Source of the DNA: Ascochyta rabiei
Taxonomy: Eukaryota; Ascomycota; Dothideomycetes; Pleosporales; Didymellaceae
Reading direction: 5' to 3'
Assembly (NCBI RefSeq): GCF_004011695.2
Contig: NC_082416.1
Location: 310,001-374,000, forward strand
DNA: 64,000 bases
This document shows positions 6,885 through 51,586 of this stretch, piece by piece. The position numbers were made by a program, and so were the translations under genes. A model generated the notes under the pieces. The model saw only the letters and a program-made list of their open reading frames with translations. It searched no databases and was not told the DNA's origin. Each line of letters opens with the position of its first letter. The stretch's first letter is position 1.

Positions 6885-6891
6885 AAAAAAA
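6885..6891 (-). terminator. Pol III terminator of the split tRNA-Pro gene
   Basis: Seven T in a row on the minus strand directly after the tRNA discriminator base (position 6892). This is the usual RNA polymerase III stop signal, and it supports a genuine tRNA gene that ends here. Confidence 0.8.
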
Positions 6892-7100
6892 GGGCCTGGC
6901 CGGGATTCGAACCCGGGGCCTGTCACAATCAACGATACCGAAGATATCTGGGCATAGGACCCCTGATGAATTGTTATTATACGATCCTGAATTGTCGTGA
7001 CTGGATCTAACTTACGAAGCGACAATCATACCACTGGTTGGTTGTTAGGGAGTGAGTTGCATTGACTGATGCTTGTTGAGCGTACCTAGACCACCAGGCC
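6892..7100 (-). tRNA. tRNA-Pro(CGG) split by two spliceosomal-type introns plus a canonical tRNA intron
   Basis: Exon pieces on the minus strand are 7100-7086 (GGCCTGGTGGTCTAG), 7033-7016 (TGGTATGATTGTCGCTTC), 6962-6960 (GGG) and 6927-6892. Joined, they give 72 nt. The acceptor GGCCTGG pairs perfectly with CCAGGCC. The D-arm is of proline type (GTCTAGTGGTATGAT), the anticodon stem GTCGC pairs with GTGAC, the T-arm is CCGGG/TTCGAAT/CCCGG, and the discriminator is C as usual for tRNA-Pro. Intron 1 (7085-7034, 52 nt, in the D-loop) starts GTACGC, has CCCTAAC, and ends CAACCAG. Intron 2 (7015-6963, 53 nt) starts GTAAGT, has ATAATAAC, ends ATCAG, and splits the anticodon between bases 34 and 35. 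The 32 nt at 6959-6928 sits at the canonical 37/38 position and contains a C(TTCG)G hairpin. Without intron 2 removal the anticodon would read CGT (Thr), which conflicts with the proline body. The gene is seen directly; splicing is inferred. Confidence 0.85.
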
Positions 7101-8544
7101 GGTCTGAACTCTCGTCCGCCTTGAGAGATATTGATGCAGACGATTTGAAATAATACGAAGATATAGTAGATTCATCACTTGCTGCTTTTTAGCTAGCCTA
7201 CCCCGCCGTTCATCGTTCGTAGGCGGAGAGATGGCACCTAGTGCCCCACTGAACATCAAGGGTCCAAAGGAAGCAGGATCAAACAGCATGATGACTAGGT
7301 GCTAGTAGTTCCTTTTCCAACTTGCTCATGTTGCGGATCGCACGGCCGTTGCTTTGCGTGACTGATTCTGCGTTTGTGTAAGCTAAGCCCTAAGACGGCC
7401 CCTGCCCAGCCTCGTTCCTGACACCGACACTGCCCCGCTGCCAGACCTGATTGAGCAGACTTTGCGAACGCTGCCGTAACACTCCCGCGGGAGCAGCCTC
7501 GCGTATCAATCGGCTGCCGCGGGAGCTTGCGCTCGATCCTGATTGTGCAAACATTCAGCTGTTGAGCCGCCTGTTATCACTCTGAAGACCACATGACGAC
7601 AGTCCTCCACCAGTCGCACTTCATCGGGATCCAGCCTGATCGAGTGTCGTGATTGGCAACTTCTTATCGCAACCGCATTCGTCATGCTTGAATGAGGCGA
7701 GCGGTGCTCGGGCGGAGAGCCGATCTCCAGGCACAGCACCCGCGGGAAGGCACAAGCATTCCCAACCTTACTCACGGCAGCCAGATGAAATGATGCGATT
7801 CGCGAGAAACCCTTGTGGCATTGTACGTGCGCAAGGTCGACGGAAGTGATCGCCGTGCACACCGACTTTGTTGCGCGTTGCTGCAGTGCGCTGGGCAACG
7901 TGTGCCAGCAGACACAATGCCAGACCTGCCAAACCGAACCAGCCAGAGTCTCGCAAGTCTCGCATATGGCCGCGTGAGACTCAGGTGTTCTGAATGCATC
8001 GATCGTGCTTTCAGACAGCAACGAAAGTGCGGGGTGCCATCTTTAGCTGTAGAGTGGATCATTACCATTGGCCCGGGTGCAGCAGTAAGCCCATTCCAGC
8101 GTAGACGGGCGGTTTCAGCGGGCCCAAGCTCCCTGCGCATCCATGTTGAGGACCAACTCGCATGCTGTGTCCAAGAGTGCAGATCACACCAATTGCTGCT
8201 GCGCGTTTTATGAACGTTTAGTGCGAGTGAAACGCAATTCCTATCTCACGCCATCAGAGGAAGGAGCCAGGGAAGGCTAGGGTTCCGAGGTGACGCTCAA
8301 AAACCCGAGGTCCCCTCCCCTCGTCACTGCTCGATCCACCACTCCTCCTTTCCTCCGAGTTCACTTGATAAGAAGCTTCCGAGCCTCGCCAAGCTGCACC
8401 TGTTCGAAGTGCGCAACATTCCAGCCATCCGGTACTACTACAACTTATAACCTCTACTTAAATACTGAGCTTATCTGCTCCTGCCACACCTCCTACTCTT
8501 CTTCCTCCACCTTGCTCTCAAATCAACACCCCAACCACAACATC
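7101..8544. other. Intergenic; promoter of the repeat-protein gene
   Basis: No supported gene. The right end, about 8440-8465, is rich in TATA-like words (CTTATAACC, TTAAATACT) about 80-100 bp before the ATG at 8545, followed by a pyrimidine-rich leader typical of fungal 5' UTRs. Confidence 0.4.
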
Positions 8545-9399
8545 ATGTCTGGCCCACGTCTTCTCCGCACTCAAGGCCCTCGCCTTCTTGACGCCCAGGG
8601 CCCTCGTCTCCTTAAGACAGAAGGCCCACGTCTACTCTGCACTGCTGAGGGTCCACGCTTGCTCAAGACCCAGACCCAGACCCGTAGTATCCACACTGAG
8701 GGTCCCCGCCTTCTCCGCACACAGGGGCCACGCCTCCTCAAGACGGAAGGCCCTCGTCTTCTCAAGACACAAGGACCCCGTCTGCTCAAGACCCAGAGCC
8801 GCAGCCTGCACATGACCGGAGCGACCAGCTCCTCGTCGCTCCTTACTTCGGACAAGCCGACGTTTGGCTCTTTGGGCCCAAAGCTGCCCTCATCTGAAGC
8901 TGCGGCCTGGACCCACGAGACTGGCAATGTCATGCGTCACTTCAACACAAGTCGGAGCTTGAAGGCTGTCAACGATACCTCCACCATCGACTTCATGTAC
9001 GTCCCGGACTTTGACCCGGATGCGCAGACCACACCCACCCAGATCCGTGTGCCCATCATTCTGTCGACTGCCACGTCTTCAGCGACACAGGCTGCTGCCG
9101 CCGAGGCTGAACAGCCGGTACTTCTGCCCACTGCTTGATACGAGAGCTTTGGACTGATCAAGCAGGTCATGCAACCGACCATCCACACTGTCGCTGCCGA
9201 CGGCACGCACATCCACGCCCCGTCCGCCATGTCTGATATGACTGAGGGCAACCACATCGACTTCCAGGGCATGGCTGCGCAGGTTGCTACCAAACTGCAG
9301 AAGCCTGTCGAGGAAGTCGAGGGTATGGCCAGACAGATCTGGAAAGGTTTCGTCGACGATGTATTCGGCCCTAAGCATGGCGGTGCCCCGAAGGTCTGA
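8545..9399 (+). CDS. Octapeptide-repeat protein of unknown function
   Basis: Start ATG 8545; exon 1 runs to 9117. A 48 nt intron (9118-9165, GTACTT...AAGCAG) removes an in-frame TGA, and exon 2 runs 9166-9399. The product is about 268 residues. The N-terminal 90 residues are nine copies of GPRLL followed by a short variable tail: KTQ, KTE, RTQ, DAQ or CTAE, with two longer tails (KTQTQTRSIHTE and KTQSRSLHMT). After a Ser/Thr-rich linker comes a unique region with DTSTIDFMYVPDFDPD and TQIRVPIIL, then a helical C-terminus (MAAQVATKLQKPVEEVEGMARQIW). There is no signal peptide, so a kexin-processed secreted peptide precursor looks unlikely even though the repeats recall one. An N-terminus rich in Arg and Leu and free of acidic residues over the first turns could suit mitochondrial import. 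No family is recognised. Confidence 0.75.
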
Positions 9400-36867: not shown

Positions 36868-36878
36868 TATATATATTT
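36868..36878 (+). promoter_or_regulatory. TATA box upstream of the split tRNA-Leu
   Basis: TATATATATTT, 32-42 bases before the mature tRNA 5' end at 36910. This is about the distance at which upstream TATA elements help RNA polymerase III in fungi. It matters here because the internal A box is interrupted by an intron. Confidence 0.5.
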
Positions 36879-36909: not shown

Positions 36910-37045
36910 GGACAGATGGGTAAGCTCACACAACACCACCAAGCGTCTGCAACAGTTCACTAACAATTCTACAGCCGAGCGGTTAAGGCGCTAGCTTCAG
37001 GTGCTAGTAGAGTAATCTGCGTGGGTTCGAATCCCACTCTGTTCA
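36910..37045 (+). tRNA. tRNA-Leu(CAG) split in the D-arm by a spliceosomal-type intron
   Basis: Exon 1 is 36910-36919 (GGACAGATGG: acceptor strand, T8, G9, G10); exon 2 is 36975-37045. Between them lie 55 nt (36920-36974) with GTAAGC at the start, CACTAAC at 36958-36964 and TCTACAG at the end: a textbook fungal mRNA intron. Joined length is 81 nt. Acceptor GGACAGA pairs over all seven positions with TCTGTTC (one G-T), discriminator A. The D-arm is GCCGAGCGGTTAAGGC, as in class II tRNA-Leu. Anticodon stem CTAGC/GCTAG has loop TTCAGGT (anticodon CAG at 36998-37000). The long variable arm has AGA/TCT pairing (37008-37020), and the T-arm is GTGGG/TTCGAAT/CCCAC. The B box is intact. CCA follows the discriminator at 37046-37048, probably by chance. 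No canonical 37/38 intron is present. Splicing is inferred. Confidence 0.9.
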
Positions 37046-37052
37046 CCATTTC

Positions 37053-37066
37053 TTTTTTGCTTTTTT
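37053..37066 (+). terminator. Pol III terminator of the split tRNA-Leu gene
   Basis: Two runs of six T (37053-37058 and 37061-37066) begin eight bases after the discriminator base, as expected for RNA polymerase III termination. Confidence 0.75.
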
Positions 37067-48808: not shown

Positions 48809-51586
48809 ATCGCGTAGTCACGTGGACGGATCTGCTTCCATCTGACGTCTTCCGAGCGGAAACCTTGATGCAGTAGTTTCCCTTCGTTTCACCTTCTCAC
48901 GTCTACTGCGAGATCACCAGTAGTCTGCTATCCATTTAAACCTTCCCAGAAATCGGACAATCTGCTGTAACAGATGTTCTTACTTGACTGGGGAGACCAT
49001 CGTTCTCAACACTCATCCAAACATTTAGGTAATCTGTGGTCGTGCGTTATGCGCGTTCCATGTTTAACCCCTCCCGGACAGTGCTCCGTCGTGCGAATCA
49101 CAAGCTTGCGGGTAGCAGCATAGTCGATGCTTGAATCACCTTTCGTCTCAGTCCAGTTGAAGCGAGTGTGTTGACCCCAGGAGACAGTGTACTGGGAGGT
49201 GACATTTGTACTGTGACAGCGAGGTACCGGCCTGTCAAATCCACCGGAGCTGAGTCCTGAGCTATGATGGTTTACTCCGAGTGGCTTCGAATTAACACTG
49301 GACCGACCATCCACAACACTTTGCGATCACAATCAACGACCATACACGTGGGTTTTTCTGCCAACAAGCATTTCCATGCTGCCCGTAAACTCAAATTTCC
49401 GTTTCCGTTAGGCCGCCTCGGAGTTAAGAAAAACCAGCACATGTGCATGTGCTGCCACGGGTTGCGGGCGGCGGCCAGCCCTGCCGCTCCATCTGCGAAC
49501 TCTATTGTATGTCCTGCAGAGCCGTGGTGGGTCCTCGTCAAAGACGCTCAGCCAGCGTATTTGGCAGCTCACACTTGTAGGTTTCTAGGCTGTCTCAAAA
49601 GGGAATCTCTGGCTATCTTAATCGAGAAAGATCGCTTTCACAAAGCTGCATCATGGGGGTTAGAAAGGTAGCCCGGTGCTCAGGCACCTGAAGCTCCGCG
49701 GCCGCTTGTAGGGACTCGGCCTGGATGCGTCTAGTACAAGTCCCCATGCAGGGTGAGGTAAAGCGTACTGAACGAATTGACCGGACACCATTATCAGATG
49801 CAATAATGAACCCTCGTCAGATCTGAAGTCTGAAGAGATTGAAAGTGATTCCTGTACAACGAACGTTGGGGTATCACGTCGCTCAAAGGCGCAACGCACG
49901 AATCTCACGAACAATTCGGCTGCCCTAGTCTTCCCCGCGTTCTCACGTTGCTCCCGCAATCCTTCCGCGGACCGTTGAATCCTTCTCGCATCACCAAACC
50001 ACTGAACCTTCAACGTCTCCACCATCGTTAACTCAAACCCCCGACAAATTGCCAAGTCGCGCTCCCGTATCTTTGTACAGCCGATCCGAAAATAAAAAAA
50101 ACTTTGACATTCACACTTCGGAATCATAACACCGAACGCGCTACGACACAGTTTGGGCCGTTCACCGCCGATATCCGTCCCAATCGCGACCAGCGGGAAG
50201 AACTCGTCCAAACACAGGCTGCTGAACGTCACGCCACGGCTAGCAGGCCACCACAGCAACGCATCAAAGTTTTTATTTTTTATTTTTTATTTTTTATTTT
50301 TTTTTGACAGCAGATGCTGGGAGGCCAGGAGAAGGTCTCTGCCCGAGCTAGCCAGCAGCATAACATGGAAGGTTCAAGGGACTGTTCAAGCACAGGAGGC
50401 GGACGAATGTCACTAGACCAGAGTATATGTCGGAGATGAACAATCTGCAAATATAGCGTTGACCTTGCTGCGCTTGCAGAATACCACCGATGACAGCTTC
50501 ATCCTGGGCTTGCAGTCGGCCCGGCAGCGTATTCCAAAGGCTTGTTCATGGGATGTGCACGTCCGCCACGTTCCGAGCAAGCTGCGTCGGTCCTGCGGCG
50601 GACAGTTCCATGAGCGCATAGGCAGCCCTCTCTTGAGCGCAGGGCAAGCACAGAGTTTCGGTGTTAAGGCGCATTAGGTTGCAGTCGCGGAGTTGCGTGT
50701 GGATCGTAGCGCGAGCTTGCGCATCGGCGTGCTCGCCGTTTCGGATGTAGATCGCGGAGAGGCGTCCGTGGCTGCGGACGCTACCGACCCAACTTCAGAA
50801 ATTTCCAAGGGATGCATCAAAGGTTGGATATAGAAGGGGGCACCGATGGTAGGCGCGTAGACGCCAGGAATTGTCTGTGAATGTCTGGACTGCTGTGAGT
50901 GCGACTGTAGGGGGAACGATTCGAGTCAGGAATGGCAGATGGACAAAGGGTGTGTTGTCAGAGGTCTTTCTATTGAGCACTGAGGTACACAGACGACCAA
51001 GGAGCCATGTGTCCTATATTAGGAGGTACTACAGTCGAGTGTACCAAATGCTGTCCTTCCGCCAAGGCGGAGAAAGTAGATTCTTTGCCATTGTCCAGGA
51101 CACGTCTTCTTGCACGTGCACTGTATCAAAGCCAGAACGCGAGCGTGCTGAACATATGCATCTGAAATCCATCCCTGCCGTCTTTATGTCACATGTGGGC
51201 TCGAAAGTCATCCAACAAGGACTGGGAAGAAATCCAACAGGTGCCTTGCTTTTACGGACAACCTTGCAAGGACAATCAGATCCCAGAATATCGAAAATCC
51301 GCAAAGGTGGCAGATGTTGCCAAGAAGGGTCGTGCGAGCGTGGAAACCGGATGGTCAGGATGGCATGTCAGGAAAACCTGCCGCAAACCCGGTAGCCGAG
51401 GAGAATTAGAAGAAACGATCCAGTCGCCCGGCAAATGCTGATGTTTTTGTCCAATCCGAAAACGCCAGAAGTCTATGAGAATGCATGGAGGAAAAGGGGA
51501 ATAATGCAACGGTCCAAGGAGCACGTCCACGATGGTGGAGCAAGTCGTCAAGTAGTGGAAGAAGGCTGGTAGAACATTGCGAGCTA
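48809..51586. other. 2.8 kb intergenic, no supported gene
   Basis: Overlapping frames on both strands (for example minus 50259-49660, plus 50871-51395) lack domains and intron logic. A (TTTTTTA)n tract lies at 50270-50305. Confidence 0.45.
50270..50305. repeat. (TTTTTTA)n microsatellite
   Basis: About five units of TTTTTTA ending in a run of nine T. Confidence 0.8.

Follow-up and report, generated by a model that had tools for sequence, protein, structure and literature searches.

Nuclear tRNA genes of this genome very probably include functional Pol III genes with U2-type introns outside the canonical position 37/38, which the spliceosome would remove before the usual tRNA endonuclease acts. 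About a quarter of the examinable nuclear tRNA genes bear mRNA-type introns. By sequence comparison the phenomenon is real, widespread and precise; its mechanism we infer with high confidence. Textbook nuclear tRNA introns lie at position 37/38 and are removed by proteins. Two reviews likewise attribute removal of eukaryotic tRNA introns to protein enzymes, not to the spliceosome (PMC3400036, PMC13149111). In the open-licence PMC literature, a body of text that leaves subscription journals and preprints mostly outside, no paper was found that reports tRNA genes with spliceosomal introns.

Two split genes in the window

The window, that is, the whole stretch of 64,000 nucleotides that was analysed, corresponds to C12:310001-374000 of a 40.9 Mb genome in 23 contigs. 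In protein searches its RGS protein was 98% identical to that of Ascochyta clinopodiicola and 97% to that of Didymella sp., its ALG11 was 97% identical to that of Ascochyta lentis, and its flavoprotein had Neodidymelliopsis sp. as the best named relative (84% identity). With the first two of these three proteins at 97-98% identity to Didymellaceae, the genome is that of a fungus in the Pleosporales, within this family or close to it. An open frame with GPRLL motif repeats lies at 8290-9138.

A preliminary description, made from the window's sequence, had placed an insert with spliceosomal motifs between G10 and C11 of a tRNA-Leu(CAG) gene, and had mentioned a second case in an unrelated isoacceptor on the other strand. 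The first was confirmed in place, length and motifs; the second turned out to be tRNA-Pro(CGG), 7100-6892 (-). Features of both genes are collected in Table 1.

Table 1. Features of the split tRNA-Leu(CAG) and tRNA-Pro(CGG) genes (window coordinates)
Feature	Position	Strand	Remarks
Possible TATA element upstream of Leu(CAG), TATATATA	36868..36875	+	about 40 bp before the tRNA; putative function
Leu(CAG) exon 1, GGACAGATGG	36910..36919	+	acceptor 5′ strand, U8, G9, G10; 7 pairs, including G-U, with the 3′ acceptor strand
Leu(CAG) spliceosomal-type intron, GTAAGC...CTACAG	36920..36974	+	55 nt; between tRNA positions 10 and 11
Branch-site-like CACTAAC in the Leu(CAG) intron	36958..36964	+	branch A 11 nt before the intron end
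Leu(CAG) exon 2, C11 to A73	36975..37045	+	anticodon CAG; variable and T arms intact
Leu(CAG) B box (Pol III internal promoter), GGTTCGAATCC	37024..37034	+	10/10 consensus letters
T-run behind Leu(CAG), Pol III-type terminator	37053..37058	+	
Pro(CGG) exon 1	7086..7100	-	
Pro(CGG) intron 1, GTACGC...CCTAAC...ACCAG	7034..7085	-	52 nt; D-loop, 15/16
Pro(CGG) exon 2	7016..7033	-	ends at C34, within the anticodon
Pro(CGG) intron 2, GTAAGT...ATAATAAC...ATCAG	6963..7015	-	53 nt; between anticodon letters 34 and 35
Pro(CGG) exon 3	6892..6962	-	retains the canonical 37/38 tRNA intron, about 6929-6959
T-run behind Pro(CGG)	6885..6891	-	

The Leu(CAG) insert thus sits at 10/11, away from the canonical 37/38 location. 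An uninterrupted Leu(CAG) gene at C4:170081-170161 (L037) equals the joined window exons at 81/81 nt, from G1 to A73, with different flanks; because of this identity the ends of the window intron are fixed to the nucleotide, with a possible one-base slide of the boundary that gives GT..AG at just one of the positions. As an identical intact copy exists, the window Leu locus is probably dispensable. The preliminary description had counted against its reading a silent locus with an intact tRNA-Leu(CAG) used instead; this objection holds by half, since such an intact copy does exist, while for His, Cys, Gln and Pro no intact gene was found in pattern and Rfam searches (which were not exhaustive).

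On unspliced Leu(CAG) DNA the Rfam match was limited to model positions 9-63 of 71 (35.9 bits), and ARAGORN reported Leu(aag), 139 nt long including an intron of 38 nt. The spliced sequence gave an intronless 84-nt Leu(cag) in ARAGORN (81 nt without CCA) and a minimum-energy fold with four arms and a variable arm, the D-arm pairs being displaced from the canonical ones. Among 4698 deletions of 30-110 nt, the exact intron was top-scoring in ARAGORN, with one tie. The earlier statement that the acceptor pairs form solely after removal of the insert was wrong: the fold of the unspliced RNA also allows them, and it is the D-arm and the tRNA body, not the acceptor stem, that need the insert removed.

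For window Pro(CGG), ARAGORN made no call on raw DNA and returned Pro(cgg) on the spliced sequence; the canonical 37/38 intron begins about 3 nt beyond the intron 2 site. The sole ARAGORN call on the whole window, a tRNA-Glu at 50700-50793, had no Rfam support and on reading was apparently spurious.

Split genes across the genome

A genome search with the Rfam tRNA model scored just 63 of 1588 first-look candidates; T-arms were therefore enumerated by patterns that required a T-run behind (one pattern with at least 100 matches listed, another with 80). The DNA of the loci found by these patterns, together with Rfam hits, was then fetched and read. Among the matches listed, 123 nuclear tRNA loci were read: 31 were split outside 37/38 (28 tabulated genes and three more Pro(AGG)), and 92 were uninterrupted according to ARAGORN, 37/38 introns aside. 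The catalogue is incomplete, as some matches were judged from the printed match alone and genes split in the T-arm would escape the patterns.

Several groups of loci were excluded from the counts: (i) non-tRNA loci, some of them after fetching (for example L011, L034, L052, L097-L100, L138, L153, L156-L158, L160, L171, L172), and further pattern matches dismissed from the printed match alone; (ii) L130 (Asn-like) and L159 (truncated Lys), neither called by ARAGORN; (iii) overlapping repeat loci, and L101-L120, repeats of other counted loci or of contig 23; (iv) contig 23 itself (55 kb, dense tRNA clusters), taken as mitochondrial; (v) two Trp and one Thr T-arm matches. The excluded L159 (C5:855139) is a tRNA-Lys(CTT)-like copy that stops at the T-arm and runs directly into a T-run.

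The expectation of the preliminary description that the organism has many such genes was borne out by these 31 genes, which also support its reading of the insert as a presumably spliceosomal intron. Among the loci read, all genes of some families were split: His 4/4, Cys 2/2, Gln 5/5 and Pro 9/9; no uninterrupted gene of these families was present among the matches listed from the (non-exhaustive) pattern and Rfam searches. Genes for Phe, Leu(CAA) and Ile(TAT) were found in no form by T-arm pattern and Rfam searches of the genome. An anticodon-arm search for tRNA-Phe led to 27 places that were fetched and read by eye, none tRNA-like; a tRNA-Phe gene that escaped these patterns may have an intron within its T-arm.

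The split genes hold 39 introns altogether, of which 37 were completely read (for the 11/12 intron of Pro(AGG) L203 and L205 the fetched DNA includes the 3′-end only). They occupy about 13 tRNA positions (manual numbering), namely 9/10 (Asp L168), 10/11 (Leu(CAG), Leu(TAG), three Ser(GCT)), 11/12 (four His, four Gln(CTG), Gln(TTG), four Pro(AGG), Pro(TGG)c), 15/16 (Pro(CGG)a, Ala(CGC)a, two Cys, Val(TAC)), 19/20 (Met-e, Pro(TGG)a), 24/25 (Pro(TGG)b and Pro(TGG)c), 26/27 (two of the Pro(AGG)), 27/28 (two Ala(CGC)), 30/31 (Asp), 34/35 (two Pro(CGG)), 47/48 (Leu(TAG)), 49/50 (Asp) and 55/56 (Arg(ACG)). Asp L168 (C17:539072-539668) is a diverged gene of four exons with three spliceosomal-type introns (54, 96 and 57 nt) and a 37/38 intron, an outlier beside six ordinary Asp copies.

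After splicing, all 28 tabulated genes were called as tRNA by ARAGORN, 23 in agreement with the assigned identity. The differing ones include Cys, which U73 and a canonical-frame GCA led us to assign (Ala(tgc) in ARAGORN), as well as Met, Val and Arg, where ARAGORN puts the 37/38 intron elsewhere. Unspliced, 8/28 received any call and none was right over the full length; for unspliced Ser L166 the anticodon was right, but the call begins within the intron.

Comparison of copies provided stronger evidence than did ARAGORN deletion scans. Met-e L144, with an intron, and L093, without it, differ at 1 position in 106, within the canonical intron. The first intron of Ala(CGC) is present in L036 and not in L055, with exons matching at 72/72 positions (canonical intron left out); the second intron of Pro(AGG) is present in L203 and L205 and not in L200 and L204. 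Downstream of the first 3′ splice site all four Pro(AGG) share one sequence if the extra intron carried by two of them is disregarded. In 14 same-family pairs (six His, six Gln(CTG), one Cys, one Ala(CGC)), compared with canonical introns excluded, the exons were identical in every case (71-72 of 71-72 positions), while the introns had diverged in 12 pairs (the other two, L161/L162 with 50/52 and L073/L084 with 49/51 matches, being close). The 60 nt upstream of the genes had diverged in all 14 pairs, with 33-42 matching positions over 64-76 alignment columns. Exons that stay identical while introns and flanks diverge indicate constraint on the spliced product. The three Ser(GCT) genes differ among themselves, with 85-88 matching columns when their mature forms are aligned together with the 37/38 intron.

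Splice signals, promoters and alternative readings

All 37 complete introns begin with GT (GTAAGT in 19, GTACGT in 5, GTAAGC in 4, other donors in 9) and 35 end with AG, among them the Leu intron and the two spliceosomal-type Pro introns of the window. Lengths fall within 48-59 nt in 35/37, the other two being 68 and 96 nt (median 53). A YTRAY motif whose A lies 10-16 nt from the intron's 3′ end was found in 36/37 introns (mean 2.7 and maximum 8 in 1000 shuffles) and CTAAC at this distance in 27/37 (mean 0.7, maximum 4), counts to be taken with caution since copies of one tRNA family are not independent; the sole intron without YTRAY at this distance, intron 2 of Pro(CGG)a, has ATAAC. The tRNA introns resemble the mRNA introns of the window, a small sample of four in two genes (49, 50, 50 and 375 nt, GT...AG) located by aligning homologous proteins with GT..AG imposed in the search: three of the four are 49-50 nt long, with GT...YAG.

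The two introns lacking AG belong to Pro(TGG): the L149 intron (C8:920407-920988) and the second intron of L151 (C9:807025-807619), at the same site, have donor and branch site and end with TG and AT. Their ends are fixed by comparison with L150, another Pro(TGG) gene, in which the AG is in place. With the 3′ AG missing, these copies may be dead or unspliceable, or may use rare sites. In the deletion scan the exact intron was best or tied best for 6/34 introns; for the remaining ones ARAGORN, allowing introns of its own, favoured other deletions, often with a different identity.

The B box on DNA is unaltered by introns in 27/28 split genes. The exception is Arg(ACG) L154 (C5:349681-350260), caught by chance, where a T-loop intron splits the B box; the intron carries a B-box-like CGTTCAATTCC (8/10 letters, a score also reached by one other of 34 introns), and a second site with 8/10 letters lies 106 bp downstream. 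An intron-free partial copy of the Arg(ACG) 3′-end, with this B-box-like sequence, was seen at about the same distance. As to the A box, it is weakened on DNA of several split genes, with at best 5/8 letters in Gln(CTG), and in others 6-8 letters are kept on one side of the intron. For introns at 10/11 the YAG of the 3′ splice site stands in for the TRG of the A box, with CAG/CCGAGCGG matching 7/8 letters (in window Leu(CAG) the A box spans this junction) and TAG/CGGAGTGG 8/8; this replacement may explain why introns are tolerated at 10/11. T-runs stand behind the split genes, for which the pattern searches had selected. TTTT was present in none of the 37 introns, against an expectation of 4.0 from mononucleotide shuffles (P about 0.01), as Pol III transcripts would require; this result is weak, because same-family copies are not independent.

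One could think of the inserts as ectopic tRNA introns with a bulge-helix-bulge (BHB) signal, cut by the tRNA-splicing endonuclease, with GT..AG ends being incidental. Such introns at D-, anticodon- and T-arm positions are described for other lineages (PMC3978253), and ordinary 37/38 introns are plentiful here (63 called in the 92 uninterrupted loci). However, those 63 include none with GT..AG and nearly all are shorter than the inserts (with a 3-nt slide allowed, 1/91 called 37/38 introns, that of Pro(CGG)b, can be read as GT..AG), whereas the inserts combine GT..AG ends with a branch motif at a set distance; moreover, a 4-bp central helix was seen at 3/37 junctions (8.1%), the level of shuffles (7.9%), in a simplified test. 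We therefore regard endonuclease cleavage of the inserts as extremely unlikely. Also very unlikely is a relic status of the split genes, in which introns landed in tRNA genes that are now pseudogenes or silent and uninterrupted copies do the work. Uninterrupted genes with the same tRNA sequence do exist for Leu(CAG) and Met-e, two Pro(TGG) introns lack AG and Asp L168 is an outlier, all of which would suit relics; but silent genes would hardly keep exons identical while most introns diverge, and uninterrupted His, Cys, Gln and Pro genes are missing among the loci found, in a catalogue that also lacks Phe, Ile(TAT) and Leu(CAA).

Another alternative is about nothing but the choice of polymerase and partly coincides with the favoured reading: split tRNAs could be made by Pol II within longer transcripts, without Pol III. 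Splicing is normally coupled to Pol II, and many split genes have an interrupted or weakened A box. The B boxes described above (Arg(ACG) having its B-box-like sites in the intron and downstream), the introns free of TTTT and the T-runs, though selected for, argue against it, as does U6, a Pol III RNA whose mRNA-type intron is spliced in fission yeast (PMC10484740). We consider transcription by Pol II alone unlikely.

In the favoured reading, that of functional Pol III genes with spliceosomal introns, Pol III would transcribe an intron-bearing pre-tRNA; the spliceosome would act on it first, using the GTAAGT-like donor, the CTAAC-like branch site and the YAG acceptor in two transesterifications; the resulting cloverleaf would be trimmed, and any remaining 37/38 intron would be cut out by the normal tRNA endonuclease and ligase, yielding tRNAs presumably used in translation. 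The suggested order would follow from Pro(CGG), where an anticodon loop ready for the endonuclease exists only after removal of the 34/35 intron.

Precedents, intron gain and consequences

The nearest precedent for splicing of a Pol III RNA is fission-yeast U6, with an mRNA-type intron thought to stem from reverse splicing (PMC10484740). Fungal U6 shares with the genes described here an mRNA-type intron within a small Pol III RNA gene, but its intron is placed close to the catalytic nucleotides of a single spliceosomal RNA (PMC10484740), while here 31 of 123 tRNA genes read are affected, at about 13 positions, and the RNAs are outside the spliceosome. Fungal U3 snoRNA, too, is a structured RNA with introns excised by the pre-mRNA machinery, and interrupted and intronless copies coexist; it is not a tRNA, however. 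The 2017 paper on these U3 genes (PMC5832005) states that, of the small structured RNAs, just U3 and U6 are known to carry an intron often.

Canonical 37/38 introns also reside in nuclear tRNA genes, and many genes here carry both kinds; the two differ in position, length and sequence signals and, by our reading, in the machinery that would remove them. Ectopic BHB introns of archaea, red algae (Cyanidioschyzon) and nucleomorphs occur in the D-, anticodon-, variable and T-arms (PMC3978253); here the BHB signal is at chance and spliceosomal motifs are present instead. A pattern for the split His gene had, as expected, no match in genome and viral contig collections that do not include fungi.

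Presence and absence of introns between otherwise identical copies suggests that the tRNA-gene introns were gained recently, possibly through reverse splicing into tRNAs. Introner-like elements of fungi are many recent spliceosomal introns in one genome. Numerous recent spliceosomal introns per genome are a likeness to the present case, but the introns of separate tRNA families are here barely more alike than shuffles (mean score 5.9 versus 5.5, best 12 versus 10, in 628 pairs). They are not copies of one another, and an introner origin has low odds.

It appears likely from the genome sequence that this free-living eukaryote has spliceosome-dependent translation: all His, Cys, Gln and Pro tRNAs would come from split genes, Pol III transcripts would be spliced routinely and tRNA supply would be tied to splicing capacity. 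With no uninterrupted gene found in these four families, and if none was missed, their codons would be unreadable without splicing of these RNAs. An essential tRNA set would then depend on the spliceosome, with Pol III transcripts as its regular substrates. If the reading is true, a class of genes escapes tRNA finders, and tRNAs ‘missing’ from fungal annotations may be split genes; intron gain becomes open to study in genes whose product is exactly known for each copy, and whether Pol II is needed for spliceosomal splicing becomes directly testable.

The genome has an intact U6 snRNA copy, L202 (C14:905415-905535). A second U6 copy, L201 (C9:1075990-1076185), with no T-run in the fetched DNA behind it, has an insert GTATGT...CGCAG directly after ACAGAGA; this looks like an intron beside the U6 catalytic site, perhaps in a dead copy, and fits reverse splicing.
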